This document shows, in pieces, positions 8,355 to 30,648 of a stretch of DNA of 34,490 nucleotides. The notes beneath the pieces are model-generated. The model saw only the letters and a list, made by a program, of their open reading frames with translations. It searched no databases and had not been told where the DNA came from. Origin of the DNA: Caldisericota bacterium (lineage in GTDB: Bacteria; Caldisericota; Caldisericia; Caldisericales; Caldisericaceae); assembly GCA_034717215.1 (NCBI GenBank), contig JAYELD010000093.1:1-34490 (forward strand). Reading direction: 5' to 3'. The position numbers and the translations under genes were made by a program. The number at the start of each line of letters is the position of its first letter. Position 1 is the stretch's first letter.

Positions 8355-8355
8355 A

Positions 8356-12684: not shown

Positions 12685-14242
12685 CTTTTCCCTCCACAAG
12701 TTTTCCAGGATTAAAAATATGATTTTTATCTACTGCATTTATCACATCTTTCATTAATTTTTCGCCTGCAATTCCAAGCTCCTTTTGCATAAATGGCTTC
12801 CGCAAAAAGCCTATTCCGTGATGATGGCTTATAGAGCCATTATGGCGTAGAGTCGTTTCCATCGCGGCTGTCCACGTATCCTCATAATATTTTAACTGGT
12901 CTTTTGGAAACCCTGCAAATGTAATATACAAACAAGCTGATTCAGGATAAAAGTGCGAATAATGTCCAGAAACGGACACTGCTCCTTTTACGTTTGACAT
13001 AGACACAATGATATCATTATAGAGTGCGGGAGCATCCGTAAATAAAGACACTACTTCAATTGTATCCACAATCCCTCCGTTTCGTAATATTGTGGGGCCC
13101 AGATGCACATCAAACCGTTTACTAAGCCATATGTCAACTGGTTTTGCGCCGATAGAAATACCATTATACTCTTCTGCCTTTTTTTTAATTACTCTATCTT
13201 CCAGGAATACAAAATCCTCATCCCCTTCGGAAATAAAAATTACTGCGACTTTGCCCGCAAGTTTTTCCATTCCCTCAAAACTTATTTTATTCTTTGATTC
13301 ATTTAATATGCTTAAAACTTTTGGAGAAACTTTTCCTTTTAGAATTTTGCTTGCAATACCAAAAGCTTGTCGATATGTGTCGCGCTTAGACACAACGCCA
13401 AAGTAACGTTCAGTTTCGTCCTTATCAAAAATCCTTACCACAGCAGGCTTTGCATCTGTCTGAACAACTTCTCTTACCATATCAAGTGCTGTTTCAACAG
13501 AATCAAATGCAAAACTGTTTTTAACAACTTTCTCTGGTGTTTTATGCACAGAAAGATATACCTCCGTAATAATCCCTATTGTACCTTCAGAACCAAGAAA
13601 AATATGTTTTAGAGAAGGTCCTGTAGATTTTCTTGATACTGGCTTTATGCGAAGAATCTCCCCGTCAGGCAATACTGCTGTAAGTCCCAGCAACATATCT
13701 TCAATCTTTCCGTATTTTGTAGAAAACTGCCCAGCAGCACGCGTTGAGACCCAACCTCCAACAGTAGAACAAGGAATGGATTGTGGAATGTTCCCCAATG
13801 AATAACCCTTATAATTCAATTCTTTCTCTAAATTTGTACCGATGATTCCAGATTCAAATACAGCAACCTGTGAAACTTCGTCAAGAGAAATAAATTTATT
13901 CATCCGCTGCGTGTTTAATATAATACTTCCATTAAACGGAATTGCCGCACCAAGTACACCTGAACCTCCACCAAATGGAGTAATCTGCACGTGATATTTA
14001 TTTGCAAGTCTTACAACTTTTTGAACCTCTTCTGTATTTTTCGGGGAAACCACAGCGGATGGAATGACAGGAATTTCACCAAACTGAGTTTTATAAACAC
14101 CGTAAAGCCAATAATCCACGCTGTATGAGATAAGGTCTCTTTCTTTTTCTGAGACATATTTTTCACCTACAATACGCTTCACTTCTTCAATAAATTCATA
14201 AGGAATGTCTTTACCTTTTGATAAAAAACTCTTTACATTCAA
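12665..14242 (-). CDS. FAD-linked oxidase, AGPS/GlcD family
   Basis: 525 aa. FAD-binding type 4 (PCMH) domain with the pyrophosphate loop PFGGGSGVLGAA at 89-100, STVGGWVSTRAAGQFSTKYG and GSEGTIGIITE; the C-terminal cap contains SHHHGIG at about 472-478 and ends with FNPGK. The His triplet is characteristic of alkyl-dihydroxyacetonephosphate synthases, while GlcD/LldD-type hydroxyacid dehydrogenases share the rest. The start is TTG at 14242, overlapping the GntR stop (TTGA). With GlpC-like and GlpA-like partners it may be a flavin subunit oxidising a 2-hydroxy acid or phosphorylated polyol; true ether-lipid synthesis is possible but no other ether-lipid gene is here. Confidence 0.8.
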   Translation of the reverse strand: MNVKSFLSKGKDIPYEFIEEVKRIVGEKYVSEKERDLISYSVDYWLYGVYKTQFGEIPVIPSAVVSPKNTEEVQKVVRLANKYHVQITPFGGGSGVLGAAIPFNGSIILNTQRMNKFISLDEVSQVAVFESGIIGTNLEKELNYKGYSLGNIPQSIPCSTVGGWVSTRAAGQFSTKYGKIEDMLLGLTAVLPDGEILRIKPVSRKSTGPSLKHIFLGSEGTIGIITEVYLSVHKTPEKVVKNSFAFDSVETALDMVREVVQTDAKPAVVRIFDKDETERYFGVVSKRDTYRQAFGIASKILKGKVSPKVLSILNESKNKISFEGMEKLAGKVAVIFISEGDEDFVFLEDRVIKKKAEEYNGISIGAKPVDIWLSKRFDVHLGPTILRNGGIVDTIEVVSLFTDAPALYNDIIVSMSNVKGAVSVSGHYSHFYPESACLYITFAGFPKDQLKYYEDTWTAAMETTLRHNGSISHHHGIGFLRKPFMQKELGIAGEKLMKDVINAVDKNHIFNPGKLVEGKDEEAVK

Positions 14243-14943
14243 ATCCTCACCTCACTTTTAAATGAATATAAATCAGCCCTTGCACTAAAAATAAGGTAAT
14301 AAATTGGTTTATTGTAGTTAAACCATGTACGGTTAATACTGAGCATTGGTGTTTCTTTTTTTAGCAAAAGAAGCTTCATCTCTTCTTTTGTGGAGATTCT
14401 CGAAGAAATTCCTTGATTAATCCGTGTCACCGGAATCTTACATTTATGCACAATAATCTGGTAATAAGAACCTTTAAAATTATATTTGTTTAAACAATCA
14501 AACAAATCAACTGGAAAATAAGAATCTTCGATTGCAAAAGATTGTTCATCAGTAAAACGTATTCTTCTTGTGTATAGAACCTTTTCTGCTTTCAGTGTTT
14601 CTATCGCTACCTTTGGCGGGTGGTTTAGAATCTTTTTGTTGATAAGTTTGTCTCCTGGTCTTACTCCTCTTGCTTCAAGCTCTACAGTAAAGCTCGCCAT
14701 AGGCTCTATTGGATCCATGGGATATTTCCGTACAACAAATGCTCCCACTCCTTGCTTTTTATGTATATATCCAAGCCGTTCAAGTTCTATCACTGCTCTT
14801 CTTGCCGTTTCTCTACCAACTTTAAATTCATTTCTTAGATTTCGTTCGGAAGGAAGAAGAGTGTCTAAATTGTATTTTCCTTCTTCTATTCTTCTCACAA
14901 GCTCGTTTCGCAACTTAATATAAAGTGGTATTCCATCTTTCAT
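14239..14943 (-). CDS. GntR-family (HutC/UTRA) transcription regulator
   Basis: 234 aa. N-terminal winged helix-turn-helix of about 70 residues (PLYIKLRNELVRRIEEGKY...LPSERNLRNEFKVGRETARRAVIELERLGYI...GVGAFV) followed by a UTRA effector domain from about 85 to 230 (RIRFTDEQSFAIEDSYFP, and the FNYNKPIYYLIFSARADLYSF end). It heads the flavoprotein operon and probably represses it and itself until the pathway's substrate or a phosphorylated intermediate binds the UTRA domain. The perfect palindrome just upstream of its gene is the expected operator. Confidence 0.92.
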   Translation of the reverse strand: MKDGIPLYIKLRNELVRRIEEGKYNLDTLLPSERNLRNEFKVGRETARRAVIELERLGYIHKKQGVGAFVVRKYPMDPIEPMASFTVELEARGVRPGDKLINKKILNHPPKVAIETLKAEKVLYTRRIRFTDEQSFAIEDSYFPVDLFDCLNKYNFKGSYYQIIVHKCKIPVTRINQGISSRISTKEEMKLLLLKKETPMLSINRTWFNYNKPIYYLIFSARADLYSFKSEVRI

Positions 14944-15025: not shown

Positions 15026-15054
15026 CAAAAAGAGCTGAATGCTTTACATTCAGC
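15026..15054 (-). terminator. Terminator of the importer operon
   Basis: Minus strand GCTGAATG (15054-15047), five-base loop, CATTCAGC (15041-15034), then TCTTTTTG. It lies just after the last permease gene and before the GntR promoter. Confidence 0.85.
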
Positions 15055-15085
15055 CCTAATCTATCTTTAATCTGACTACTATATA

Positions 15086-16021
15086 TTATTCTCTTCTGTA
15101 CGGTTTGAGAAGTGCAGAAGGATATGATGCGTTCCTTGCTGTAAAGATAAGCACTACAATTGTAAGGATATATGGCATCATTAAGAAGTACTGGAAAGGA
15201 ATATTTATGGCAGTTCCCTGTAATCTCAATCCCAGCGCATCGACGCCACCAAATAGAAGTGCTCCCCAAAATATTCTTGAAGGGATCCAGTTAGCAAAGA
15301 TAACTAATGCTATAGCAACCCATCCTCTTCCCGCAACAATATCAAATATAAACATATTAAATTGTGCAAGAGTAAAGAATGCACCACTCATACCCATCAA
15401 CGACCCTCCTACCATAAGAGCAATATAACGCATTTTATATACATCTACTCCAACTGCATCTGCAGCTTCTGGATTCTCGCCCACGGATCGCAAAGACAAA
15501 CCAAATGAAGTTTTAAAGAAAATATATCCGGACACAATAACAAGTATAACGGCAATATACGTTAAAGCATACTGGTTAAATAAGATAGGACCTAAAAATG
15601 GTATTTTCCATAACCCAGGGATTTTCAAAGTATCAAATGCTGTGATAGTTGGAGGAATTGTTGGAGAACCAATTATTGCCCTGTACACATAATAAGCAAG
15701 ACCGCTTGCAAAAATTGTAATACCTAACCCAGAAACATGCTGGTTCAACCCTAATGTTACGGTAAGGAACGCCATAAGCAATCCAAATAAAAGCCCAGAA
15801 AGTGTTGCAGCGAATACACCAAGCCATAAACTGTGGGTAAAATAAGTAGTAACAAAACCTGCTAATGCACCGAATATCATGATACCTTCAATTCCAAGAT
15901 TAAGGATCCCGGAACGCTCAGAAAAAGCTTCTCCTAGCGTTGCAAGTATTAAAGGGGTTGCCATTCTTATCGTAGATGCAAAAAATCCTACCAGAAACGA
16001 TGATGTAAAGAAATTGTTCAT
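15086..16021 (-). CDS. BMP-type ABC transporter permease, second subunit
   Basis: 311 aa, strongly hydrophobic with about eight to ten membrane segments, in the BPD_transp_2 fold of nucleoside/simple-sugar importers (YufQ/NupQ-like). Recognised from the start (RMATPLILATLGEAFSERSGILNLGIEGIMIFGA) and the cytoplasmic coupling segment GLSLRSVGENPEAADAVGVDVYKMR. ATGA overlap with the preceding permease and AGGAGGGG before the ATG show co-translation. It forms a heterodimeric channel with that permease, powered by the ATPase upstream; the BMP lipoprotein captures the substrate outside. Nucleoside, nucleobase or related ligand is most likely. Confidence 0.9.
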   Translation of the reverse strand: MNNFFTSSFLVGFFASTIRMATPLILATLGEAFSERSGILNLGIEGIMIFGALAGFVTTYFTHSLWLGVFAATLSGLLFGLLMAFLTVTLGLNQHVSGLGITIFASGLAYYVYRAIIGSPTIPPTITAFDTLKIPGLWKIPFLGPILFNQYALTYIAVILVIVSGYIFFKTSFGLSLRSVGENPEAADAVGVDVYKMRYIALMVGGSLMGMSGAFFTLAQFNMFIFDIVAGRGWVAIALVIFANWIPSRIFWGALLFGGVDALGLRLQGTAINIPFQYFLMMPYILTIVVLIFTARNASYPSALLKPYRRE

Positions 16022-17088
16022 TTTCCCCTCCTGATACTTATTTTATATTCAAATAAAAGCAACATCGCAAGCATAACAATTAGGGTTATCCCTTGAATTA
16101 CATCTGCAATGTATGGTGGTATACCTACGCTTCTACTCATCATTTGAGCTCCCGTAATAATAACAGAAAAATATATAGCCGCAAATAGCACACCAAAAGG
16201 ATTAAGTCCTCCAAGCATGGCAATAACTATACCACTGTATCCGTAGCCAGGAGAAAGATTGTGAATAAGATGATAGTGCACTCCAGCAACTTCGCTAACG
16301 CCCGCAAGCCCTGCTATTCCACCACTTAGAACTGAAGCAATAATAATAGTTTTTAATGTGTTAATACCAAGAAAATTGGCAGCTTTAGGGTTTGATCCCG
16401 TTGCCCTGATCTCAAATCCAAGTTTCGTTTTTTTAACAATAAAATATGCCACAAAAACTACAGCAACAGCAATTAAAAAGCCAATATGTACTCGCGAGCG
16501 GGGAATTAATTGCATAAGCTGTGCATTTTCTGCAATATTAACTGACTCTGGGTATTGTGACACTGGATGTCTCCAGGGTCCTTCTAGAATTGCGCTAACA
16601 AAATATATCATAATATAGTTCATAAGAAGCGTGGTAACAACATCATCTACTTTAAACTTAGCTTTGAGATAAGCAGGAATAAAAGACCACACTCCACCGC
16701 CTACAAATCCTGCAACAATTACAAGTAAAACATAAAAAACTGGAGGAAGATTAAAATTTTGTATACCAACCCATGTAGCAAGCAGTGCTCCTGCATAAAG
16801 CTGCCCCTCTGCGCCAATGTTCCAGTATTTTGCAAGAAACGCAATCGATACGGCGATCCCAGTCAAAATAAGCGGAGTTGCCTTAACAAGCATTTCCAAA
16901 AATGCAAACTTCGTCCCAAGCCCGCCATAGAAAAGATAATAAAAAGCTGTAAACGGATTTTTCCGGAGGATCAACAAAAAAATAGAAGAAATTGCAAGAG
17001 ATATAATTACCGCCAGAATTGGCATTAATATTCTAAACCACCATGGAGGAGGTGTTCTTTTTTCCAACTTAAAGCTAATTAGATTCAT
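16018..17088 (-). CDS. BMP-type ABC transporter permease, first subunit
   Basis: 356 aa integral membrane protein, YufP/NupP-like. One N-terminal membrane segment, then TPLILTGIAVSIAFLAKYWNIGAEGQLYAGALLATWVG, typical of this permease family, and the EAA-like coupling loop GFEIRATGSNPKAANFLGIN. Overlaps the ATPase gene upstream by 14 nt and the second permease by ATGA. Longer than its partner because of the N-terminal extension, as is usual for this pair. Substrate as discussed for the lipoprotein. Confidence 0.9.
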   Translation of the reverse strand: MNLISFKLEKRTPPPWWFRILMPILAVIISLAISSIFLLILRKNPFTAFYYLFYGGLGTKFAFLEMLVKATPLILTGIAVSIAFLAKYWNIGAEGQLYAGALLATWVGIQNFNLPPVFYVLLVIVAGFVGGGVWSFIPAYLKAKFKVDDVVTTLLMNYIMIYFVSAILEGPWRHPVSQYPESVNIAENAQLMQLIPRSRVHIGFLIAVAVVFVAYFIVKKTKLGFEIRATGSNPKAANFLGINTLKTIIIASVLSGGIAGLAGVSEVAGVHYHLIHNLSPGYGYSGIVIAMLGGLNPFGVLFAAIYFSVIITGAQMMSRSVGIPPYIADVIQGITLIVMLAMLLLFEYKISIRRGK

Positions 17089-18607
17089 GGAGACCTCCCA
17101 TTCTTGTGCCTGTCATCATTAGCCCAAGTTCCTCTATAGTAAGATCTTTCCTGTCCAATATACCCATGATTTCTCCTTCGTACACCACAAGAACTCTATC
17201 GCTTAGCATTAGTATTTCATCAAGATCTTCTGATATAAGAAGAATCCCAACGCCATTTGCCCTCGCGCTAAGTAGTTTAGTATGTATATATTCTGCAGCC
17301 CCTACATCTAATCCCCGTATTGGCTGAGATGCTATTATAAACTCGGGATTCCTTGAAAGAACTCTTCCAAGTATCACTTTTTGCAAATTGCCACCAGAAA
17401 GCGTCCTGGTTGTCGTATAAATACTGGGAGTTTTGACATCATATTCTTTTATTATTCTTTCTGCGAATTCTTTAACTGGAGAATAGTTTACCAAAAATCC
17501 ACTTGATAATGGCTTTTTGTCATAAGATTCAACCATAAGATTTTCGAATACGGGAAGATCTAATATGAGACCTTCTTCCATCCTGTCTTCTGGAATTCTT
17601 CCTATCCCGAGGTTAATAATCTCTTTTGGTTTTTTACCTGTTATTTCTTTGCCTTTAAAAATAATTCTACCGTCTGTATTTTCTCTTACCCCGCAAAGAA
17701 CACCTTCTAATTCGCGCTGTCCATTACCAGATACCCCTGCTACTCCAAGAATTTCTCCACTTCTCACCTCAAACGATATTCCCTTTAATGCCTCTATTCC
17801 TTTATCATTAAGAGCATGCAAATTCTGCGCTATGAGAAGTGGCTCTCCTCTTTCTGAGATTTCTTTTTTCTCAATAATTTCTAGTACTTCCCTTCCAACC
17901 ATCAATCTCGCAAGTTCTTTCTTAGTTGTATCTTTTTTGTTTTTCTCCCCTGTGAGTATGCCGTTTCTCAAAATAACGATTCTATCGCTTATCTCCATAA
18001 CTTCACCTAATTTATGTGAAATAAAAACAACGCTTTTCCCTTCTTTTGTTAATAATCTCAACGTATCAAACAAATTTTCTGCTTCTTGTGGAGTCAAAAC
18101 TGCGGTAGGTTCGTCAAGTATGAGCACATCAATGTTCCGATAAAGTGCTTTTATAATTTCTGCTCGCTGCTTTTCTCCTACGGATAACTGCCAGATTTTT
18201 GCATCTGGATTAACCTCTAGTCCATACTTTTTTGATAACGATATAAGGTCTTTTTTTGCTGACTCAAGATCAATTTCTATGCCTTTTGAAGGAGGCAATC
18301 CCAGTATAACATTCTCTGTTACAGTGAATGATTTTACTAAAGTAAAATGCTGGTGCACCATACCTATCCCAAGGGATATCGCATCTTTGGGAGACTCTAT
18401 ATCAACCTTTTTACCTTTTACATAGATTTTGCCGCTATCCATAGAATACATCCCGTACAAAATTTTCATTAGAGTTGTTTTGCCAGCGCCGTTTTCTCCA
18501 AGAAGAGTTACTACTTCACCTTTATAAATATCAAAATCAATATCATTATTTGCAACTGTATGCAAAAAGGTTTTTCTGATATTTCTCATCTCCACAACTT
18601 TTTCCAT
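17075..18607 (-). CDS. ABC transporter ATPase, two-domain (YufO-like)
   Basis: 510 aa from the ATG at 18607 (GAGGTG upstream); a GTG six bases earlier is in frame. Two ATP-binding cassettes. The first has Walker A GENGAGKTT at about 37-45, signature LSVGEKQRAEI and Walker B LILDEPTAVLTPQE. The second has a degenerate Walker A (GVSGNGQREL), signature LSGGNLQK and a changed Walker B region (FIIASQPIRGLDVGA, with Q where the acid and proline pattern differs). The degenerate second site is normal for this family. It energises the two permeases downstream. A perfect palindrome lies between it and the lipoprotein gene. Confidence 0.9.
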   Translation of the reverse strand: MEKVVEMRNIRKTFLHTVANNDIDFDIYKGEVVTLLGENGAGKTTLMKILYGMYSMDSGKIYVKGKKVDIESPKDAISLGIGMVHQHFTLVKSFTVTENVILGLPPSKGIEIDLESAKKDLISLSKKYGLEVNPDAKIWQLSVGEKQRAEIIKALYRNIDVLILDEPTAVLTPQEAENLFDTLRLLTKEGKSVVFISHKLGEVMEISDRIVILRNGILTGEKNKKDTTKKELARLMVGREVLEIIEKKEISERGEPLLIAQNLHALNDKGIEALKGISFEVRSGEILGVAGVSGNGQRELEGVLCGVRENTDGRIIFKGKEITGKKPKEIINLGIGRIPEDRMEEGLILDLPVFENLMVESYDKKPLSSGFLVNYSPVKEFAERIIKEYDVKTPSIYTTTRTLSGGNLQKVILGRVLSRNPEFIIASQPIRGLDVGAAEYIHTKLLSARANGVGILLISEDLDEILMLSDRVLVVYEGEIMGILDRKDLTIEELGLMMTGTRMGGLHESN

Positions 18608-18625
18608 GCTCACCTCACGCTAATA

Positions 18626-18661
18626 CCAATTGAGCACAGGAAATTTCCTGTGCTCAATTGG
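18626..18661. repeat. Perfect 36-bp palindrome in the lipoprotein-ATPase gap
   Basis: Left half CCAATTGAGCACAGGAAA is followed directly by its exact reverse complement, with no spacer. It lies between the BMP gene stop and the ATPase start on an operon transcript. No T-run follows on either strand, so it is not a standard terminator; it may stabilise the upstream lipoprotein mRNA or partly terminate, giving more binding protein than transporter. Confidence 0.85.
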
Positions 18662-18679
18662 TTCTCTGTTAATTACTAA

Positions 18680-19693
18680 TTAGTCTCCTTTTGGAGTTGA
18701 TTCATCTACTGAAACTCTAAATGTTCCATCTAGAATTTCTTGTTCTTTATTTTTAACCATTTCAATAATATCTGCAGGGAGCGTATCTTCAAAACCATAG
18801 AAAGGAGCAAGATAAGCGCCACCTTTGCCCATCATTGACCAATCCTTAAGATCCTGGGCTTGATAAGCTCCGAGTTTAATAGACTCTACCAGGTATTTAA
18901 CTGTTGGGAACATATTCCAGATAGGTCCGGTAATTACTGTTTCAGGAGCAAGTAAATTTTGATCCTGCATATTACCAATAGCATAAACATCTCTTTCTTT
19001 ACAGGCATCAATAACACCATATCTTTCTGCATAAAGAACATCTGCTCCAGCATCTATCTGTGCCATTGCAGCTTCTTTTGCCTTTGGTGGATCGAACCAG
19101 CATCCAATAAATGAAACCTTTACTTTCACATCCGGATTTACTTCCTTTGCACCTTCTATAAACGCATTTACAATTCTATTTACTTCAGGAACAGGAACAC
19201 CGCCCACAACACCAAGAATATTAGTTGTTGTAATCTTACCTGCGATCATACCTGCAAGATATGCTGGCTCATGAATCCAATCATCAAATACCGAGAAATT
19301 TGGTTCAGCAAGTCCTCCACCAGAACCAAATGCAAAAGCAATTTCCGGATAATCTTTAGCCACTCTTCTTACGGCATCTTCAGCACCAAAAGCATCGCCC
19401 ATAATAAGGTCGAATCCTTTGTCTGCATATTCTCTCACCACTCTTTCAAAATCAGATGAACTTATATTTTCTGCCCATTCATAATCAACATCAAGCTCAT
19501 CTCTCGCCTTTAAAAGTGCTTCGTGTATACAACCATCCCATGGTTCTTCAATAGGCGTTGCAAAAATAGAAGCTACTTTTAATTTCGTTTCTTCTGGTTT
19601 TTCCTCAGGTGCAGCTTCTGGCGCACAACCAGAAATTACAAGCGCAAGCACCATAAATAACACTAAACCCATTAAAATACTTTTTCTTTTCAC
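18680..19693 (-). CDS. BMP-family substrate-binding lipoprotein
   Basis: 337 aa. Lipoprotein signal with lipobox ISGC (Cys at about 23) and an acidic, Pro/Ala/Glu-rich linker, so it is anchored outside the membrane. The fold is the PnrA/Med/BMP type: KVASIFATPIEEPWDGCIHEALLKA, FERVVREYADKGFDLIMGDAFGAEDAVRRVA, FAFGSGGG, GMIAGKITTTNILGVVGG, and IDAGADVLYAERYG. Members bind purine nucleosides or related compounds. GTG start with GGAGG upstream. The nearby molybdenum hydroxylase and deaminase-like amidohydrolase suggest a purine or pyrimidine base or another N-heterocycle. The normal aromatic residues of the ligand pocket cannot be judged by eye. Confidence 0.88.
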   Translation of the reverse strand: MKRKSILMGLVLFMVLALVISGCAPEAAPEEKPEETKLKVASIFATPIEEPWDGCIHEALLKARDELDVDYEWAENISSSDFERVVREYADKGFDLIMGDAFGAEDAVRRVAKDYPEIAFAFGSGGGLAEPNFSVFDDWIHEPAYLAGMIAGKITTTNILGVVGGVPVPEVNRIVNAFIEGAKEVNPDVKVKVSFIGCWFDPPKAKEAAMAQIDAGADVLYAERYGVIDACKERDVYAIGNMQDQNLLAPETVITGPIWNMFPTVKYLVESIKLGAYQAQDLKDWSMMGKGGAYLAPFYGFEDTLPADIIEMVKNKEQEILDGTFRVSVDESTPKGD

Positions 19694-19720: not shown

Positions 19721-20953
19721 TTAAATAAGATACTTTTCACGGTTAACAAGCTTGCCGTGACTTATCACATAGAGAGGCTCATCGTGATTACGTATTGCCT
19801 CTCTCACACTGTTTTCCCTTAGCACGACAAAATTTGCCTGTGCTCCTTCTTTTAACATAAAGTTCTTTAGCCCAATTGACTTTGCCGCATCAACAGTAAC
19901 CATATCATACAGTTTCTCCATATCTTCGCGAGAGGTCATCCACAATATGTGAGAAGAAAGAAATACTACTTCTAATAAATTGTTTCTGCCATATGGATAA
20001 TATGCATCTGATATGTCGTCCTGCCCAAGAACTACAAGCACTCCAGCATCAAGAAGCTCTCTAATGCGAGCATGTAAAGGACCTGTATGAGGGTCACTTA
20101 CAACTCCCATCTCTGCCTTTTTTAAAAGAGCAATGACTTTCTGTAAATAAGGACCTGGATACATTGACATCGCTCTTGCATGGTGTGCAAGGCTTCTACC
20201 AAAACGATTTTCTTGAATCGTTTTTACAGCAAGCATTTCCAGTGTTCTAAGGCCTGGGTCTCCTGCATCATCTACAAGCATAGAAATATCCTTATCATAT
20301 TTGTTGGCAATTTCAAACATTGCATCAATGTGAGTTTGCTCGTCCTCTTCGGTAAACTCTATCCAGGGTATTCCGCCAACAACATCTGCTCCCATTTTTA
20401 TTGCTTCTTCGATAAGTTCTTTTGCACCGAATTCTCTTACAACTCCATCCTGAGGGAACGCAACAATTTGCAATTCCACTACATCTTTAAACTCTTCTTT
20501 TGCCTTTAGTAACGCTTTAATTCCTTCAAGTTTAGCCTTGTTATCAACATCTGCAAATGCTCTAATATGGGTTACCCCGTTCAATGCTGCAAGTTTCATT
20601 GAACGCCTCACATTTTCGATAATCCACTCCTCGGCATATTTTTCCTTAATCTTGGAAGCCAACTCAATAGCGTTCATTGCTTTACCCATACCTGCTTCGT
20701 GATAATCTTTAAGTGCTTCTTCATCCATCATTTCAAGGGTATATACTTTACACAGGTGAAGGTGTGTATTTATAAACGACTCTGTTGCCAGTTTTCCACT
20801 TGCATCAATTTCCTTTTCACCTTTTCCGCTTAACTTCTCTCCTATGCTTGTGATTAGTCCGTCTTTAACGCCAATATCCACAAGTGTTTCGGAAAGTCCT
20901 CTTGTACGTGCATTTCGCACTACAAGGTCAAATTCTTTTACTTCTCCTTCCAT
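19721..20953 (-). CDS. Amidohydrolase, cytosine-deaminase-like, altered metal site
   Basis: 410 aa from the ATG at 20953 (a TTG at 20956 is also possible; GGAGGAG lies upstream). TIM-barrel amidohydrolase like CodA: HLH metal motif at 64-66, GADVVGGIPWIEFT in place of the CodA GAIPHFEFT segment, HHARAM near 258, and GQDDISDAYYPYGRNN with the conserved Asp. Aligned by eye to E. coli CodA, the HCDE segment reads LVDD here: the metal His is Leu and the catalytic Glu is Asp. The gene lies between the molybdenum hydroxylase and the importer genes and probably acts in the cytoplasm on the imported ring compound. Deamination of cytosine itself is doubtful. Confidence 0.8.
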   Translation of the reverse strand: MEGEVKEFDLVVRNARTRGLSETLVDIGVKDGLITSIGEKLSGKGEKEIDASGKLATESFINTHLHLCKVYTLEMMDEEALKDYHEAGMGKAMNAIELASKIKEKYAEEWIIENVRRSMKLAALNGVTHIRAFADVDNKAKLEGIKALLKAKEEFKDVVELQIVAFPQDGVVREFGAKELIEEAIKMGADVVGGIPWIEFTEEDEQTHIDAMFEIANKYDKDISMLVDDAGDPGLRTLEMLAVKTIQENRFGRSLAHHARAMSMYPGPYLQKVIALLKKAEMGVVSDPHTGPLHARIRELLDAGVLVVLGQDDISDAYYPYGRNNLLEVVFLSSHILWMTSREDMEKLYDMVTVDAAKSIGLKNFMLKEGAQANFVVLRENSVREAIRNHDEPLYVISHGKLVNREKYLI

Positions 20954-20975
20954 CAAATTATTTCTCCTCCTTTCT

Positions 20976-21506
20976 TTATTCCTTCATATATTCTCTTGCA
21001 AGTTTTGCTGCTCTTTCAAAATCTTTTTTATCCTGTTTCGCATAACTTTCATTTTTTTGTACAAGTTTTGCTGCATTAAAAATAGATTCGTAACCCGTGC
21101 ACCTGCAAAGATGTTTACTAAGAACCTCTTTTAGCCTGTCGTTAGAAACATCAGGCTCTTTACTAAATAAAGCGTATAATTCCATAACAATCCCTGGTGT
21201 ACAAAACCCGCACTGCACTGCATTTGCATCCACAAATGCCTGCTGGATGGGGTGTAGTTTTTTCCCGTTAGCCAAGCCCTCTATTGTAAGAATATTTGCT
21301 CCTTCGAGTGTTTTAAATAAAACCTTACAGCTCCTAACAGCTTCTCCGCTTACAACTACCGTACAAGCACCGCAAACCCCGTAGCCACAACCAAACTTTG
21401 TTCCCGTAAGGCCCATTCTGTCTCTTAGAACATAAAGAAGTGTATCACCTTCTTCAAAATAAATTGTTTCTTTTTTTCCGTTCAGCATAAGTGTGATATT
21501 TTTCAT
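20976..21506 (-). CDS. Molybdenum hydroxylase [2Fe-2S] subunit (XdhC/CoxS-like)
   Basis: 176 aa, the usual size of the small subunit of xanthine dehydrogenase-family enzymes. First cluster ligands C40, C45, C48 and C60 (GCGYGVCGACTV), second cluster C99, C102, C134 and C136 (QCGFCTPG and HLCRCTGY). It relays electrons from the molybdenum site. GGAGG precedes the ATG; its start overlaps the large-subunit stop (TAATG). The C-terminal tail after about 160 is charged. No FAD subunit gene is adjacent, so electrons may leave through ferredoxin or another acceptor. Confidence 0.94.
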   Translation of the reverse strand: MKNITLMLNGKKETIYFEEGDTLLYVLRDRMGLTGTKFGCGYGVCGACTVVVSGEAVRSCKVLFKTLEGANILTIEGLANGKKLHPIQQAFVDANAVQCGFCTPGIVMELYALFSKEPDVSNDRLKEVLSKHLCRCTGYESIFNAAKLVQKNESYAKQDKKDFERAAKLAREYMKE

Positions 21507-23842
21507 TACCGCACCTCCGTGTCTCCATCAATTACAGCTTTAATCTTATCTGGTGTAAGCGGGATTTCGTAGAAATCATAACCAATTGCATCGTAGATTG
21601 CATTCAATATGGCAGGAGCTACTCCCACCATTGGATGTTCTCCTATTCCTCGTGCTCCAAATGGCCCTATTTCATCATGAGTTTCTACAAACTCTATCGT
21701 CTGTTTCCCGGGCATATCATAAATTGTTGGCAGTTTATACTGCAACAGGTTGGCATTAACTAATTTTCCGTTTTTATCAAATTTTATTTCTTCCATAAGA
21801 GTCTCGCCAATACCCATAACAACACCGCCTACAACCTGCCCTCTGGCATTAGAGGGGTTTATTACTCTCCCTATGTCAATAGAGGTAGCAAAGTTATCAA
21901 TAATAACCTTACCCGTTTTCTTTTCGATCCGAAGTTCACACCCTTGAACCCCCATTGTATAACTCACGCCTGTCCTTCCCATTCCAGTTTCTGGATCTGG
22001 ATTTTGAGCACCTGGCAATCTAAAATCGCTTGACACCTGAACAACATCACCAATTGTTGTTCCGTCTTTCGTAATATAACCACGGCAAATCTTGCTGACA
22101 GGAACTTTTACATCTGGATATGATCTGTCATAAACATAATTACCGTCATATTCAAGCACACCAACATCCCTATGCAGTACTAAAGCCGCATTTTTCTTCA
22201 ACATCTCGATTGCTTTATTTGCAGCTTTTATTATGGCGTTACCTCCCTGGAATGTAAACATGGACCCCACTGTTTGCCACTCCCATGGCGAAAATTGTGT
22301 ATCAATTTCGTTGTAAACTCTAACTTTTTCTAATGGCAGTTTTAATGCTTCTGCAGCAATCTGCCTTACAAGGATAAAGAGCCCTTGCCCGACATCAGCA
22401 CCAGCCATATTAACAGAAACACTTCCATCAACATTAAATTTTATATGGCATCCTTTGGCTGCAAATGTTGGAGCCTTTGGAGATTTAATCAGCCCAGCAA
22501 TACCTCTTCCATAGTAATAATTTTCATCTTCTTTTGGTTTTTCTTTGTAAAATATCGCTCTTTCCACATTATCAATACATTTATACAGGTTCCCATCACT
22601 CTTCTTCATCGTTTCCCCTACAACGTTTGATTTACCTACAGAAAGAAAATTTTTCTTTCTGATATCAATCGGAGACATATGTAATTTGCGAGCAACAATA
22701 TCCACAAGACGCTCAAGAGCAAACTGTATTTCAGGATGTCCGTAGGCTCGCAACGCTCCAACTGGTGGGGTATTTGTATAAACAGAGTATCCAGTTACGT
22801 CAGCATTAGGAAATTCGTAAACTCCGCTCGCAGATTGTGTTGCAACGATTAATACATTCGATCCTGTATCTGCGTATGCCCCCGTAGATAAGTACAGTTT
22901 TGCTTCCATGGCAGTAAATGTGCCATTTTTCTTTGCTCCAATTTTCATTTTTGTTCTTATGCCTCGTCCTAAAAACGTACTTGTAAAATCTTCCTGTCTT
23001 GAGACTTTCAATTTTATTGGATGCCCAGGAGCAAAGCTTGCGATATATGCAATAAGCGGACCTAACGAAGGATCGGATTTATAACCAAAACACCCTCCTA
23101 TGTATGGCACATGAACCCTCACATCACTTATAGGAAGATCAAATAAATTTGCAACTTCCTCTCTTACGGCAAAAGATCCCACATTGGATGTCCAAATTTC
23201 AATTGTATTATCCATTCTGAAGAGAGCTATTGCGCCATGTACTTCAATGGCTGCCGATGACATAAGCGGAAAATTAAACTCTCTTTCTACTACAACGTCT
23301 GCCTCTTTAAATCCTTTGACAGCATCACCTTTTTTTATCCTATAATGCACAGCAATGTTTGTTTTTGGTATTGGTTCATAAAGAGGAGATACATGAAAAT
23401 ATTCATCACTATTTTCATGTATAAGGCATGCATCCTCTTTGATTGCTTCCATTGCATTTGTGTAGACTGGAAGTGGTTCATATTCAACTTTTATTTTTTT
23501 AAGTGCCTCTCGTGCATGTTTTTCAGTATCAGCTACAACTGCTGCCACTGCATCGCCAATATGACGAACTTTATCCACAGCCATAGGCATCATATCTTTT
23601 ATACAATCACCATAATGTTTTTTCCATTCCTTACCTGTTATAACTTTATACACGCCAAGCATTTTTTCAGCTTCTACTGTATCGATAGATAAAATCTTAG
23701 CGTGAGCATATTTTGGACGTAATATTTGAGCATGAAGCATCCCGGGAAGCTTGATGTCATCAATGAATATAGCCTCCCCGGTTACTCTCTCTAAGACATC
23801 AGGGCGATATTTAACATCTTTGCCAATATGTTTAAGGCTCAT
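21506..23842 (-). CDS. Molybdenum hydroxylase large (MoCo) subunit, xanthine dehydrogenase family
   Basis: 778 aa from the ATG at 23842, with GGTGG five bases upstream; a longer in-frame start lies in the promoter. The N-terminal aldehyde oxidase a/b hammerhead (RVTGEAIFIDDIKLPGMLHAQILR) is followed by the Mo-binding domain: GGCFGYKSD, GALRAYGHPE, GADVGQG and the catalytic glutamate E735 in GIGEHPMVG. The enzyme hydroxylates a purine, aldehyde or N-heterocycle with water. The usual GGGFGGK reads GGCFGYK, and EVHGA stands where QEHF/EPHG is common, so substrate may differ from xanthine. First gene of the operon, with a near-consensus promoter just upstream. Confidence 0.9.
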   Translation of the reverse strand: MSLKHIGKDVKYRPDVLERVTGEAIFIDDIKLPGMLHAQILRPKYAHAKILSIDTVEAEKMLGVYKVITGKEWKKHYGDCIKDMMPMAVDKVRHIGDAVAAVVADTEKHAREALKKIKVEYEPLPVYTNAMEAIKEDACLIHENSDEYFHVSPLYEPIPKTNIAVHYRIKKGDAVKGFKEADVVVEREFNFPLMSSAAIEVHGAIALFRMDNTIEIWTSNVGSFAVREEVANLFDLPISDVRVHVPYIGGCFGYKSDPSLGPLIAYIASFAPGHPIKLKVSRQEDFTSTFLGRGIRTKMKIGAKKNGTFTAMEAKLYLSTGAYADTGSNVLIVATQSASGVYEFPNADVTGYSVYTNTPPVGALRAYGHPEIQFALERLVDIVARKLHMSPIDIRKKNFLSVGKSNVVGETMKKSDGNLYKCIDNVERAIFYKEKPKEDENYYYGRGIAGLIKSPKAPTFAAKGCHIKFNVDGSVSVNMAGADVGQGLFILVRQIAAEALKLPLEKVRVYNEIDTQFSPWEWQTVGSMFTFQGGNAIIKAANKAIEMLKKNAALVLHRDVGVLEYDGNYVYDRSYPDVKVPVSKICRGYITKDGTTIGDVVQVSSDFRLPGAQNPDPETGMGRTGVSYTMGVQGCELRIEKKTGKVIIDNFATSIDIGRVINPSNARGQVVGGVVMGIGETLMEEIKFDKNGKLVNANLLQYKLPTIYDMPGKQTIEFVETHDEIGPFGARGIGEHPMVGVAPAILNAIYDAIGYDFYEIPLTPDKIKAVIDGDTEVR

Positions 23843-23886
23843 TTGGTCCACCTTCCCGAAGCATTTTGAATTTGAATATAAATTTA

Positions 23887-23914
23887 TTATATATAAAAAA
23901 ATTGCGCAGTCAAG
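23887..23914 (-). promoter_or_regulatory. Promoter of the hydroxylase-importer operon
   Basis: Minus strand -35 TTGACT (23914-23909), 16-nt spacer, -10 TATAAT (23892-23887, perfect). Start expected near 23880, giving a leader under 40 nt; no room for a riboswitch. Confidence 0.75.
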
Positions 23915-23956
23915 GAAATTAATCACACCTTTTTAATAAGACCAAAGAAACAGAGC

Positions 23957-24055: not shown

Positions 24056-25402
24056 CTATTTACCTATACAAAAACGCGAAAAAATTGTATCAAGAATTTC
24101 CATTGAAACTTCTTCTCCAGTGAGTATTCCAAGCAAAATAATTGCTTCTTTTAGTTCTTCCGAAACAAGTTCGTTTCTGCCTGAGATTACAAGCTCTTTT
24201 GCCTTTTTAAGATGCTTGACTGCATCCTTTAAACAGTTCTTTTCTCTCTCTGTTGTGATAAGGGAAGTCTCTATCTCTTTGGGAAGGATTTTATCATAGA
24301 TTATCTGTTCAAGAACCTTAATGCCTTTCTTTTTAAGCGCAGAAATTTGAATAATATCTTCATTATTAAATAAACTTTTTAGCTCTTTTATTGTAAGTCT
24401 CGCAGGAAGATCTGTTTTATTTAATACAATAATACGATCCTTTCCGTCTGTAAGTTTGGCAAATTTTTTGTCTTCTGCCGTAAGCATTTCACTTGCATCA
24501 AACATAAAAAGTATAATATCTCCCCGTTGAATTGCTTTTACGCTTCTTTCTTTCCCTAAAACTTCAATAACCTCTTTGGTTTCTCTTACTCCTGCCGTAT
24601 CGATAAATCGAACAGGAATACCAAAAAAATCTATCATCTCTTCTACCGTATCCCTTGTTGTCCCCGGAATTTCACTAACAATGGCTCTATCGAATTTTAA
24701 AAGAGCATTAAGCAGTGTAGATTTCCCAACATTTGTCCTTCCTGCAATCACAACCTTTGTCCCTTCTTCAATTCTTTTTCCTGTTTTGTATGTTGAAAGA
24801 AGCGATTTGATGAGATTAAGAACATCGGTAATCTGCTTATCAAGTTGGCCAGTACTTAGTGTCTCTACATCAAATGGAAAATCTATTGCTCCCTCTATGG
24901 CTGAGATAGTATAAAGTAACCTCTTTTTTATCTCGAATATCTTATCGCTTATTCCACCAAAAAGTCTGCCTGATGCAACCTTTAACGCCTTCTCTGTTTT
25001 TGCTTCAATCAATTCAATTACTGCTTCAGCTTCAATAAGATCTAGCTTGTCATTAAGAAAAGCACGCTTTGTAAATTCTCCTCTTTCCGCAAGACGTGCA
25101 CCAAGTCGAATGAGGATTTTAACCACTAACTCAAGATTCTTTACTCCGCCATGCATCTGAATTTCCAAAACATCCTCTCCCGTATAGGAATGTGGGGATT
25201 TAAAGTAAATGGCAATACCTGTATCGATACGCTCTTTCGTAATTGGATTAAAAATATACCCATTATAAACTGTTCTGGGGCTTTTAATAGTTGTAGAAAA
25301 AACTTTCTGCCCTATAAAAAAAGTGGTGGGACCTGAAAGCCTCACCACTCCTATCCCGCCCAAACCTTTTGGCGTAGAAATTGCTACAATTGTATCATTC
25401 AC
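24056..25402 (-). CDS. mnmE: tRNA modification GTPase MnmE
   Basis: 448 aa, typical length. It acts with MnmG to modify U34 of tRNAs (cmnm5U). N-terminal folate-binding domain (DTIVAISTPKGLGGIGVVRLSG), then G domain with G1 GRTNVGKST at 221-229, the GTTRD switch (PGTTRDTVEE), DTAG, and NKTD; the C-terminus ends with the conserved CIGK (Cys445). The start overlaps the khpB stop by four bases (ATGA-type). Last gene of the rpmH operon. Confidence 0.97.
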   Translation of the reverse strand: MNDTIVAISTPKGLGGIGVVRLSGPTTFFIGQKVFSTTIKSPRTVYNGYIFNPITKERIDTGIAIYFKSPHSYTGEDVLEIQMHGGVKNLELVVKILIRLGARLAERGEFTKRAFLNDKLDLIEAEAVIELIEAKTEKALKVASGRLFGGISDKIFEIKKRLLYTISAIEGAIDFPFDVETLSTGQLDKQITDVLNLIKSLLSTYKTGKRIEEGTKVVIAGRTNVGKSTLLNALLKFDRAIVSEIPGTTRDTVEEMIDFFGIPVRFIDTAGVRETKEVIEVLGKERSVKAIQRGDIILFMFDASEMLTAEDKKFAKLTDGKDRIIVLNKTDLPARLTIKELKSLFNNEDIIQISALKKKGIKVLEQIIYDKILPKEIETSLITTEREKNCLKDAVKHLKKAKELVISGRNELVSEELKEAIILLGILTGEEVSMEILDTIFSRFCIGK

Positions 25403-25848
25403 TTTTTTAAATCAACTACAACATGCCTTCTTGGCTCTTTCCCCTCACTATGTGTCCAAATATTAGGATAGTTATGCAGAGCCATATGAATAGTTTTTCT
25501 AGCAGAGGCAGACATCGGTTTAAGAGAAACAGGCTCCTTTAATCTCTTTGCACGTAGTGCTGCATTTAAGGCAACAGTCTTAAGCATTTCTATTTGTCTC
25601 GACTTGTACCCATTAATATCTAACATAACCATTGGAAAATTTCTATCCTCTTTGTGTGCATATATATTCAATATATACTGAAGGGAACGCAGAACAATCC
25701 CTTCTTTCCCTATAAAGAGTCCTGGATTAGAAAGTCCTTCTATGTTAACATAGAAGTTTCCATATTTTTTTTCTATAACAACGGACGGATTTTCCTCTGC
25801 CGCCTTAAAAAAACTTTCAAGAAAATTGTTTATTTCTCGTTCTTCCAT
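25399..25848 (-). CDS. khpB: KhpB/Jag RNA-binding protein, short form
   Basis: 149 aa from the ATG at 25848, one base after the yidC stop; longer in-frame starts lie within yidC. KH-II domain with the RNA-binding loop GLFIGKEG at about 45-52, then an R3H domain (SASARKTIHMALHNYPNIWTHSEGKEPRRHVVV). It lacks the N-terminal Jag_N domain present in most Gram-positive Jag proteins, so it is about 60 residues shorter. KhpB binds RNA with KhpA and its gene commonly follows yidC. Assignment is firm from the two domains and context. Confidence 0.9.
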   Translation of the reverse strand: MEEREINNFLESFFKAAEENPSVVIEKKYGNFYVNIEGLSNPGLFIGKEGIVLRSLQYILNIYAHKEDRNFPMVMLDINGYKSRQIEMLKTVALNAALRAKRLKEPVSLKPMSASARKTIHMALHNYPNIWTHSEGKEPRRHVVVDLKK

Positions 25849-25849
25849 A

Positions 25850-26974
25850 TTATTTTTCTTCTTTGCCTTTTTTAGGAATTTCCTGTGTTGCTCGTGCAAG
25901 ATGCTTTAAAATATATAGTTGTTCTCCCGCCTGAACAAATGAGAATGTAATCCAGTAGAGAAGCAGTGATGGAGACCACTTAATCGACCATACTGCAAAA
26001 ATAACCGGCAAGAAATACATCATCATTTTCATGTTCTGGTCTTGCACCTGTCCTGGCATTTGTGAAGTTTTGCTCTGAACAAACATAGAAACAAGAACAA
26101 GTACTGACATAATGTAATATGTATCAGGAGTATTTAAATTACTAAGCCAGAGGAAACGCTCAAGGTTAAACGGTGCATAATTAGTAAGCGAACCAAATAA
26201 AACAAGAAGCAGCGGCCACTGCACAAGTAGCGGTAGACACCCTCCAAACATACTCACATTATGCTCTTTATAGAGTTTCATTGTTTCTTGGTTTGCTTTT
26301 TGAGGGTCACCTTTATACTTCTTTTGAATCTTTTTAATTTCAGGCTGGAGTTTTGTCATTCCTGCAGTAGATTTAAATTGTTTTTTTGTTAACGGGTGTG
26401 TAAGAAGCTTAAGCAACAACGTAACAAGAATAATAGCAAGTCCGTAATTATAAGTAAACTTGTGTAAAAATTCAATAGTGTCTCTCATAGCCTTATAAAA
26501 TTTATTCGGAGCAACAAGACCGATGATCCCATTCTTTGTGATTGTTTGTAATAATGCGCCGTTATTATCCTTATAACTCACCTGGACTGTCACAGGGTAT
26601 GCTCTCGCATCAATATAATCGTAAGAAGTAATTGTAAATGTAGCTGTTACCGCTTTCCCAGATTCAATAATAGCAGTGTTGGCTATTTCTTTTACATCGA
26701 CTTCTCTTGTCCCCTTCCATAATTCAAAGGGTGATAGGTCAGAACGGTTGTCAATTGAAATAAGTTTTACTTTCACATCAGAAATAAAATCAGTTGTATT
26801 GTTCGTAATACGGACTGAAAGAGGAATATTTTCCATAGGCCTTCCTCTCCCTGCAATTTGTACAATCACACCAGATTCAGTCACATCCGGAAAACTTACT
26901 CCACCAGCACATCCTGTAATAAAAATTGAAAACATAAGCATTCCAATTAAAATTAAAAATACTTTCTTTTTCAT
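25850..26974 (-). CDS. yidC: Membrane insertase YidC, lipoprotein with Ig-like external domain
   Basis: 374 aa. Signal peptide with lipobox ITGC (Cys22). Residues about 30-150 form a beta-rich external domain (ENIPLSVRITNNTTDFISDVKVKLISI; VTATFTITSYDY) that looks like a CARDB/Ig-like fold, not the proteobacterial P1 domain. The conserved insertase core follows from about 170: five membrane segments, LLLKLLTHPLTKKQ (Lys where most have Arg in the first core segment), KLQPEIKKIQKKYKGDPQKANQETMKLYKEH, and GGCLPLLVQWPLLLVLF. It inserts proteins into the membrane with or without Sec. Its stop is one base from the khpB ATG. Confidence 0.93.
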   Translation of the reverse strand: MKKKVFLILIGMLMFSIFITGCAGGVSFPDVTESGVIVQIAGRGRPMENIPLSVRITNNTTDFISDVKVKLISIDNRSDLSPFELWKGTREVDVKEIANTAIIESGKAVTATFTITSYDYIDARAYPVTVQVSYKDNNGALLQTITKNGIIGLVAPNKFYKAMRDTIEFLHKFTYNYGLAIILVTLLLKLLTHPLTKKQFKSTAGMTKLQPEIKKIQKKYKGDPQKANQETMKLYKEHNVSMFGGCLPLLVQWPLLLVLFGSLTNYAPFNLERFLWLSNLNTPDTYYIMSVLVLVSMFVQSKTSQMPGQVQDQNMKMMMYFLPVIFAVWSIKWSPSLLLYWITFSFVQAGEQLYILKHLARATQEIPKKGKEEK

Positions 26975-26983
26975 GTATCCTCC

Positions 26984-27193
26984 TTATGGGACAGGGTCGT
27001 TTCCTCCAGGGAAAAAAGGATTACATCGCAAAACTCTTTTTACTGCAAGCCATCCACCCCTCTTTACCCCATATTTTTCAACTGCTTGAACTGCATAATC
27101 AGAGCAAGTCGGGATAAAACGGCATGTCGGTGGTTTTAACGGTGAAATATAACGTCTATAAAATTTAAGAGCGAAGAGTAAAAAAGTTTTCAT
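26984..27193 (-). CDS. yidD: Membrane protein insertion efficiency factor YidD
   Basis: 69 aa, standard length. [32 protein letters not shown] and RCNPFFPGG are the family hallmarks, with the two Cys before the SDYA motif. Overlaps rnpA by ATGA and precedes yidC by nine bases. Peripheral membrane protein assisting YidC-dependent insertion. Confidence 0.95.
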
Positions 27194-27513
27194 TCCTTAC
27201 ACTCCTTTCTTAAAATCCCTGACAAATCTATTAAAACATCCTGCATTTTAACAGTTGTTATACTTTTCTTTGCAACAATGACATAACTTCTATCCTTCAA
27301 TAGTTTATCCTCAATTTTTAAAAACGATTCTCTCATTAATCGTTTCGCTCTATTCCGCTCTACAGCATTCCCTACTTTTTTAGATGTAATAAATCCAACT
27401 TTCCCTTGTGTTCGATTCGAAACAAACACAACAACAAAATGCCCAAAGTATTTCTTTGAGTTTTCCAGTACATCTTTAAAGTCTTTCCCTTTAAGCCTTT
27501 CCCACAATTTCAA
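27190..27513 (-). CDS. rnpA: Ribonuclease P protein component
   Basis: 107 aa. Basic, with the RNR signature [12 protein letters not shown] at about 53-64 and the [13 protein letters not shown] strand. It binds RNase P RNA for tRNA 5' maturation. The only in-frame start near the expected N-terminus is a TTG two bases after the rpmH stop, with no clear ribosome binding site, so translation is probably coupled to rpmH. Confidence 0.95.
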
Positions 27514-27514
27514 T

Positions 27515-27649
27515 CTATACTGAAAGCTTTATCCTGCTTTTTGTTCTTCTTCTGTTTAAAATTCTTCTGCCGCCAGGCGATTTCATCCTTTTCCTGAATC
27601 CCAAATGTCTGGCACGTTTCTTATTATGCGGTTTATAATTTATCCTCAT
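27515..27649 (-). CDS. rpmH: Ribosomal protein bL34
   Basis: 44 aa, too short for most ORF lists. The peptide begins MRINYKPHNKKRARHLGF, contains FRKRMKSPGGRRILNRRR and ends RIKLSV, the classic L34 pattern of a highly basic large-subunit protein. AAGGAGG lies five bases before the ATG at 27649. First gene of the rpmH-rnpA-yidD-yidC-khpB-mnmE operon. Confidence 0.97.
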   Translation of the reverse strand: MRINYKPHNKKRARHLGFRKRMKSPGGRRILNRRRTKSRIKLSV

Positions 27650-27676
27650 AAAAACCTCCTTAAAATTTCACATCTT

Positions 27677-27704
27677 ACTATATCAAAACTTTAATAATAG
27701 TCAA
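27677..27704 (-). promoter_or_regulatory. Promoter of the rpmH operon
   Basis: Minus strand -35 TTGACT (27704-27699), 16-nt spacer, -10 TATAGT (27682-27677), giving a start near 27670 and a short leader with AAGGAGG. Confidence 0.75.
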
Positions 27705-27720
27705 CCATTTTTTCTCCAGT

Positions 27721-30427: not shown

Positions 30428-30428
30428 C

Positions 30429-30648
30429 TTATCCACTCCTTTATTTTTATTATTTTACTCTTTAATATTTAAAATATAATAATAGTAATAATAATGTGCT
30501 GCATTATGTGTAAATGTTTATTCTATATAGGTTTTTATTAAAAAATGCTGTTTATATGTTTGTTGGTAAGTTTTAATCTTTTCAACACTATCAACAGGAT
30601 AAAACTTATCCACAAAAAAAATTATCTTTTCTACATAGTTTTCCACAG
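30429..30648. other. dnaA-dnaN intergenic region, candidate oriC
   Basis: 220 nt, very AT-rich. One perfect DnaA box TTATCCACA at 30606-30614, flanked three bases away by an inverted near-box (ACAGGATAA, 30594-30602), plus TTTTCCACA at 30639-30647 (one mismatch) and TTATCCACT at 30429-30437 (one mismatch, over the dnaN ribosome binding site). An AT stretch at about 30450-30500, ending in triplet runs (AATAATAGTAATAATAATG), could be the unwinding element. The spacer upstream of dnaA lacks a perfect box. Box clustering is seen; origin activity is inferred. Confidence 0.5.

Follow-up and report, generated by a model that had tools for sequence, protein, structure and literature searches.

Can an amidohydrolase of the cytosine deaminase type lose one of the histidines expected to hold its metal and still be a working enzyme, and if so on what kind of compound would it act? 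The question is raised by a gene at 19721..20956 on the minus strand of the window, by which we mean the whole 34,490-nucleotide stretch of Caldisericota DNA analysed here; its motifs, the genes of its apparent operon and the promoter- and terminator-like sites given below also lie on this strand. The gene encodes 410-411 amino acids, depending on whether translation starts at TTG (20954-20956) or ATG (20951-20953), and ends with a stop codon at 19721-19723. Both by fold and by overall sequence its product, which we call the LVDD protein after its β5 motif, belongs to the CodA/AtzC branch of the amidohydrolase superfamily. It matches PF07969 (Amidohydro_3) at 134.1 bits, above the cut-off of 29.7, its best PDB sequence match is AtzC (E 2.6e-55) with cytosine deaminases next, and it is 30% identical to E. 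coli CodA by BLASTP. An AlphaFold2 model built with 23 sequences (pLDDT 90.6, pTM 0.91) superposes closely on CodA (3g77, Z 53.3, rmsd 2.2, 390 aligned residues; 3o7u, TM 0.89) and on AtzC (5akq, Z 52.9, rmsd 2.0, 394 aligned residues; 4cqb, TM 0.89). The structural matches listed for this model included no uronate isomerase or D-aminoacylase, an observation that excludes neither. We rejected an ordinary cytosine deaminase as the identity of the protein, as the HxDE motif is absent and all three cytosine deaminase models miss their cut-offs (NF005748, 265.1 bits against 438; NF006685, 229.7 against 483; NF005759, 110.9 against 403).

The first-pass annotation had described a CodA-like enzyme without the β5 metal ligand, reading LVDD where CodA has HCDE, and the alignments to CodA and AtzC bear this out. 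In a BLASTP alignment that runs through β5 without a gap the CodA stretch DVHCDE becomes SMLVDD, with LVDD at 20267..20278 at the end of β5; Leu227 falls on CodA His214 and AtzC His217, Asp230 on CodA Glu217 and AtzC Asp220, and Asp229 (by HMMER) on AtzC His219. In the model β5 spans residues 223-227, so that Leu227 is the last residue of the strand, where the metal ligand is expected, while β6 spans 255-258 and a further strand 284-287. As the same annotation held, the other predicted metal-site residues are kept: the β1 HxH pair of predicted ligands His65 and His67 (20756..20764, within the HLHL motif at 20753-20764), the β6 histidine His259, which lies in LAHH (20180..20191) beside an extra His258 and aligns to CodA His246 and AtzC His249, and the predicted ligand Asp313 in the β8 motif GQDD (20015..20026), which aligns to CodA Asp313 and AtzC Asp303. 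The crystal structures of AtzC are described as holding zinc through His60, His62, His217 and Asp303, with His249 catalytic and not a ligand (PMC4577212). Because the CodA and AtzC alignments, the modelled strand and a superposition over about 390 residues all agree, we consider the β5 histidine truly missing. Misalignment as the cause of LVDD was rejected, since both alignments are free of gaps from before β5 to β6 and since the modelled β5 ends at Leu227; a sequencing error was likewise rejected, as all 28 non-redundant subfamily members agree at this position.

That subfamily emerged from a set of 56 proteins, for which 98 collected copies were filtered by coverage and length (300 residues), freed of contained copies and merged at 98% identity. 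The set omits the copy of genome G009, a fragment of 175 residues where a contig ends, but takes in the longest part of a broken copy in G010, and the β5 residue was read leaving aside distant matches in G378, G128, G190 and G327 and second matches without a locus. At β5 the 56 non-redundant proteins have Leu in 28, His in 27 and Gln in one. A subfamily sharing LVDD, for which the first-pass annotation had suggested looking, thus exists: Leu is present in 28/28 of its members, which are 58-100% identical to the window protein, compared with 25-39% for the other proteins (hereafter the cousins). In a maximum likelihood tree (LG+C20+F+G4 by PMSF, midpoint-rooted for drawing and with several long-branched outgroup rows) a branch supported at 100/100 separates the Leu group from the rest and recurs in 100% of 200 bootstrap trees. 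The group needs a single change on this tree, a value as low as which was reached in 0/500 label shuffles, and has one origin there.

Comparison of the two halves of this set reveals that the change at β5 does not stand alone. The β1 histidines are His in 27/27 Leu-clade members with sequence there and in 28/28 cousins. At the β3 position, where the cousins carry the His of RTHVD (His in 26/28), the LVDD protein has Phe134 (20555..20557), and the Leu clade has Phe in 25/28 and Leu in 3/28; this second histidine loss does not figure in the first-pass annotation. The change from CodA IPHFEF to IPWIEF (20354..20371), also read correctly from the start, introduces Trp198, found in 28/28 Leu-clade members and 0/28 cousins. 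The Gln of CodA FPQEG is kept as Gln169 in 28/28 Leu-clade members, which may hint at the type of substrate, its counterparts AtzC Gln160 and CodA Gln156 being listed among the conserved active-site residues (PMC4577212), and the Trp of CodA DPWYP is Tyr in the LVDD protein. The Glu-to-Asp exchange at the fourth motif position had been put forward as a sign of altered chemistry, and here we part from that proposal: AtzC also has Asp there (alone among the 28 cousins), which makes the exchange less remarkable and by itself no evidence. The unusual part is the loss of the β5 histidine together with that of β3, and not Glu-to-Asp.

The remainder of the conservation pattern suggests a protein under constraint. 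LAHH is common to the Leu clade (LAQH occurs once), as is a β7 stretch of the form [ST]DPxTGP lacking the long CodA loop. In a 17-row alignment H65, H67, K70, D229, D230, H259 and D313 are invariant, and the invariant histidines are 65, 67, 209, 258, 259, 295, 336 and 391. Four orthologues, 93-95% identical to the window protein, occur in records named Caldiserica or Caldisericota, and dN/dS lies between 0.064 and 0.115 in 10/10 pairs formed by the window gene and four close relatives, so the LVDD protein is under purifying selection. Leu-clade records are named as Caldisericota, Thermotogota, Chloroflexota, Bacillota and Armatimonadota, with Marinitoga lauensis (Thermotogota) the only isolate among the named ones. 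Among plasmid records, 546 had matches, all below 60% identity and so none of them close to the Leu clade (the β5 residue was read in nine of these matches plus AtzC); a literature search by titles and abstract openings found nothing naming the clade. The G010 copy (L092, G010:C1:178643-179826) is broken by a stop and a frame break, and its genome has no close relatives of the XdhA and BMP partners described below.

What then of the metal? Amidohydrolases have been sorted into nine ligand-based subtypes and four metal classes that include metal-independent ones (PMC12017989), and AtzC is called subtype III (PMC4577212), the ligand set of which is HxH at β1, His at β5 and Asp at β8. With Leu227 at β5 this defining feature fails, and the LVDD protein is therefore not to be filed as subtype III, CodA or AtzC, although it probably works like these enzymes. 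Subtype V (the D-aminoacylase type) is described as having a Cys/His/His β-site (PMC12017989); compared with that description only, the β5 histidine is absent, and Cys69 is replaced by Asp in 2/27 Leu-clade members with sequence there. An altered active site is well supported by the alignments. In the mechanism that we favour, the α-site metal centre (HxH, β5 His and β8 Asp) would be reduced to His65, His67 and Asp313, with Leu227 in place of the β5 ligand. One more coordination position would then be free for water or the substrate, and His259 together with Asp230 would be left for proton transfer.

The Leu clade may instead have replaced the ligand. The shortened β7 stretch DPHTGPLH (20072..20095) provides Asp288 and His295, each found in 28/28 Leu-clade members and at the aligned position in 0/28 cousins, and the extra β6 histidine His258 is present in 27/28 members and 0/28 cousins; being specific to the clade, all three are candidate substitutes. 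The β7 stretch is rebuilt in exactly this clade, and Asp288 directly follows the modelled strand 284-287; Asp288 and His295 are the best candidates, although the β7 deletion makes the alignment around them less sure. Their exclusive occurrence in the Leu clade weakens the three-ligand reading and strengthens one in which the site is complete through Asp288, His295, His258 or a shifted His259 and the enzyme hydrolyses a new substrate by the usual subtype III chemistry. In one member (L074), however, Gln replaces His258, and the AtzC counterpart of His259 is described as catalytic rather than as a ligand (PMC4577212). On balance we regard a completed site as possible but somewhat unlikely.

Two further explanations depart from metal-dependent hydrolysis. 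The amidohydrolase superfamily has a non-hydrolytic member in uronate isomerase, and the Leu clade might likewise catalyse a different class of reaction, as an isomerase, decarboxylase, lyase or metal-independent amidohydrolase, the last of these being an accepted subset (PMC12017989). We find this distinctly unlikely, given that HxH, the β6 His, the β8 Asp and the carboxylate at the Glu217 position are all kept. Less probable still is an inactive homologue retained as a binding or regulatory protein: a first-shell ligand has indeed been lost, but the other active-site residues are invariant across records of five phyla with dN/dS near 0.1, and the gene often stays in an apparent catabolic operon. 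Since an entire branch of the family has this change fixed, and its genes often stand beside those of a molybdenum enzyme and an uptake system, the LVDD protein is probably a working enzyme, and the case for an active metal-dependent hydrolase is moderate.

These neighbours are seen clearly in the window. Reading along the minus strand, the amidohydrolase gene is preceded by genes for an XdhA-like molybdopterin subunit (21506..23926; NF043082, 485.5 bits, below the cut-off of 780, with the GIGE motif present) and an XdhC-like iron-sulphur subunit of a molybdenum hydroxylase (20976..21506; NF043084, 166.6 bits, below 217). It is followed by genes for a BMP-family substrate-binding lipoprotein (18680..19693; NF047927, 87.4 bits, cut-off 400), an ABC transporter ATPase (17075..18613; NF047930, 445, cut-off 670) and two permeases (permease 2, 16018..17088, NF047929, 187.1, cut-off 400; permease 1, 15086..16021, NF047928, 239.6, cut-off 465), after which comes a terminator-like hairpin (15031..15057). 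With gaps of -14 to 66 bases this order makes an apparent operon, MnmE lying 129 bases upstream of the set. The listed XdhA reading frame opens with GTG, but Met29 at 23842 is probably the start, because in close relatives either a stop falls at residue 22 or 28 of the listed frame or the alignment begins no earlier than residue 23. A promoter-like TTGACT-16-TATAAT (23886..23913, 11/12 by consensus match only) lies upstream of this likely start; such sites are rarer in the region than in shuffles (21 compared with 30.8), which makes it weak evidence, while terminator-like sites are more frequent (13 compared with 6.4). Between the BMP and ATPase genes a hairpin of 17 bp with a 4-base loop (18625..18662, no strand assigned) may reduce read-through and thereby favour synthesis of the binding protein. 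Beside the operon, 24056-31959 holds a cluster of the replication-origin type (MnmE, Jag, YidC, DciA-like, RecF-like, DnaN and DnaA). On its other side, 6802-14943 encodes a GntR regulator, GlcD-like and Fe-S proteins, a glycerol-3-phosphate oxidase-like FAD protein, an FGGY kinase and an FAD oxidoreductase, and looks like a separate polyol or hydroxy-acid catabolic operon.

The same partners recur with the Leu enzyme in other genomes. Whole-genome searches were made in 20 Leu-positive genomes (all those recognised among 386) and in 27 Leu-negative ones chosen by hand from the other 366. Relatives of XdhA at 57% identity or more were present in 15/20 Leu-positive and 0/27 Leu-negative genomes, and of BMP at 64% or more in 14/20 and 0/27 respectively, counts that are not independent events because the genomes are related. 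Four genomes (G019, G023, G027 and G035) carry the BMP gene unlinked on another contig. We also counted by hand 29 non-redundant loci, comprising the 20 genomes (the window's own included) and nine named records. In 18 of these the immediate neighbour is a Xdh subunit gene, in 20 such a gene occurs within the fetched flank, and a BMP gene of at least 53% identity is adjacent in 11. The contigs of the G001 and G035 loci end with only XdhC in view; the Xdh pieces of L053 are two genes off, and those of L055 stand on the other strand at a distance of about 5 kb. The nine loci without a Xdh neighbour include one on a 3.2-kb contig (L051); in three (L054, L056 and L057) none of the examined flanking genes is of relevance; and L048 and L085 have no Xdh neighbour and instead a tungsten-type AFOR gene and a PF04199 'cyclase' gene nearby. 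The 'cyclase' gene recurs near the LVDD gene or its HVDE cousin L094 (L085, L048, L049 and L094). Strict dependence on these partners is contradicted by G019, which has lost the adjacent Xdh pair, and by G007, which has an intact Leu enzyme and neither close partner (XdhA or BMP). The Leu enzymes nevertheless form a conserved CodA/AtzC-like clade without the β5 ligand, often in an operon-like arrangement with a molybdenum hydroxylase and an importer.

In the model that we prefer, the amidohydrolase would be made together with the XdhA-XdhC molybdenum hydroxylase and the BMP-type ABC importer. A purine-like N-heterocycle, either a base or a nucleoside, would enter through the importer and have its ring hydroxylated or reduced by the molybdenum enzyme, after which the LVDD enzyme would hydrolyse a ring amide or an exocyclic amine. 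Support for a purine-like compound comes from genes in several places. In Marinitoga lauensis the Leu-enzyme gene is preceded by pieces of XdhA, by a PALP enzyme and by an 8-oxoguanine deaminase (593.6 bits, cut-off 532), and L085 has a nucleoside phosphorylase-family gene near its Leu-enzyme gene. We searched the window's own genome for the reductive urate pathway members SsnA, HyuA, YgfK/UacX, YgeW/UacY, YgeY and YgeX, of which YgeX and YgeY were compared with the fetched stretches only. One contig (L121, G000:C53:1-11715) encodes SsnA (619.1 bits, cut-off 444), adenine deaminase (607.2, cut-off 472.5), an allantoinase/hydantoinase-like protein (382.7, over the allantoinase cut-off of 357.85) and a fragment resembling YgeW (36% by BLAST, with no NCBIfam match at the strict limit). 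Another (L122, G000:C130:1-19000) encodes 8-oxoguanine deaminase (607.6, cut-off 532), XDH subunits, a GltD-like protein and a PreA/UacX-like DHO_dh protein (419 bits, cut-off 335), UacX being described as a DHO_dh protein in that pathway (PMC12507026). The genome further encodes an FTCD_C protein and gives four matches to PNP_UDP_1.

As several of these enzymes match the reductive urate pathway, the host probably degrades purines anaerobically. All of them are on other contigs than the LVDD gene, and the known steps of the pathway are described as already having other enzymes (PMC12507026). With these steps filled and the LVDD module separate and equipped with its own molybdenum enzyme, the operon may act on a different purine or another N-heterocycle. 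The gene neighbours point to a purine-like N-heterocycle with weak to moderate strength, and none of creatinine, isoguanine, hydantoin-like or cytosine-like compounds is specifically favoured. We also considered the role of a xanthine amidohydrolase ('xanthinase'), the gene for which was reported in 2012 as not locatable in C. acidurici (PMC3519856); its gene cluster is stated to have been identified since, with reference to Tong et al. 2023 (PMC12507026).

The Xdh pair itself may not be a purine enzyme, since the window has no FAD subunit and the pair falls below every curated cut-off listed. An XdhA-XdhC pair lacking an FAD subunit, or an AFOR in its place as in L048 and L085, would fit aldehyde oxidation, and the AFOR of these two loci would fit an aldehyde substrate as well. 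The best NCBIfam models for the transporter are moreover those of a putative B6 ABC transporter, and XdhA scores higher against glyceraldehyde dehydrogenase (392.5 bits) than against some xanthine dehydrogenase models (378.4 and 262.2). It is therefore conceivable that what the module oxidises is not a purine but an aldehyde or a pyridine of the vitamin B6 type, with the amidohydrolase opening the resulting lactone or lactam. However, all four transporter subunits are far below the B6 cut-offs (87-445 against 400-670 bits), XdhA scores best against NF043082, followed by 4-hydroxybenzoyl-CoA reductase at 465.3, with the aldehyde models lower (392.5 and 348.3) and all of these matches below cut-off, and the neighbour in Marinitoga is an 8-oxoguanine deaminase. 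We consider an aldehyde or B6-like substrate unlikely.

Taken together, the reading that we prefer is an active hydrolase with an altered metal site (HxH and Asp) that acts after molybdenum hydroxylation of an imported purine-like N-heterocycle; in all its parts we give it a chance a little short of even. The broader proposition combines a metal centre outside the CodA/AtzC pattern, and perhaps outside the standard subtypes, in an enzyme that would be active with either HxH and Asp or a site rebuilt from β7, with a single origin, joined to the loss of the β5 and β3 histidines, and an undescribed step, ring-opening or deaminating, downstream of molybdenum hydroxylation in the anaerobic catabolism of purines or other N-heterocycles in at least five phyla. 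As a whole we hold it only tentatively. The classification of amidohydrolases rests on metal ligands, one of which in CodA and AtzC is the β5 histidine; the Leu clade is a test of how few ligands, or which substitutes, such a metal site needs, and it is liable to misannotation as cytosine deaminase. If breakdown of purines or other N-heterocycles proves to be its role, it would represent a step that is still uncharacterised in Caldisericota, Thermotogota, Anaerolineae and similar lineages, and would offer a ready module of molybdenum hydroxylase, hydrolase and importer for substrate discovery.

Among known systems AtzC (PDB 4CQB, 5AKQ and 2QT3) shares the fold of the LVDD protein and most of its active-site residues, with His60/His62 corresponding to His65/His67, Lys65 to Lys70, His249 to His259, Asp303 to Asp313 and Asp220 to Asp230. 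It differs where its zinc ligand His217, in DYHIHD at β5, becomes Leu227 in SMLVDD, where His219 becomes Asp229, and where the RTHVD His becomes Phe. CodA (PDB 1K6W and 3O7U) similarly shares the fold, HxH, the β6 His, the β8 Asp and the Gln of FPQEG, and differs in having HCDE (HxDE with His214 and Glu217) for LVDD, IPHFEF for IPWIEF, GHDD for GQDD and a longer β7 loop. A paralogue in the window's own genome (L003, G000:C138) and the cousins L077 and L078, at 35-39% identity, have the full motif: they keep HxHxDK together with GQD (L077 and L078) or AQD (L003), and differ from the LVDD protein in H[VI]D[EQ] at β5 and RTHVD or RGHVD at β3. A parallel to the double loss is a QVDE protein (L035, G084, L035:1501-2712), in which both the β5 and the β3 histidines are Gln (the latter in RTQVD). 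It lacks the Trp198, LAHH and DPxTGP stretches of the Leu clade and is placed apart from it on the tree, on a long branch of unsure position, and its loss of both histidines is apparently independent. As to the operon, the importer is closest to the putative B6 ABC transporter of NCBIfam, all four subunits falling short of its cut-offs, and its pairing with an amidohydrolase resembles one on the atrazine plasmid pADP-1 (L099), where, close to atzD, an amidohydrolase family gene immediately adjoins a set of BMP-type ABC transporter genes.
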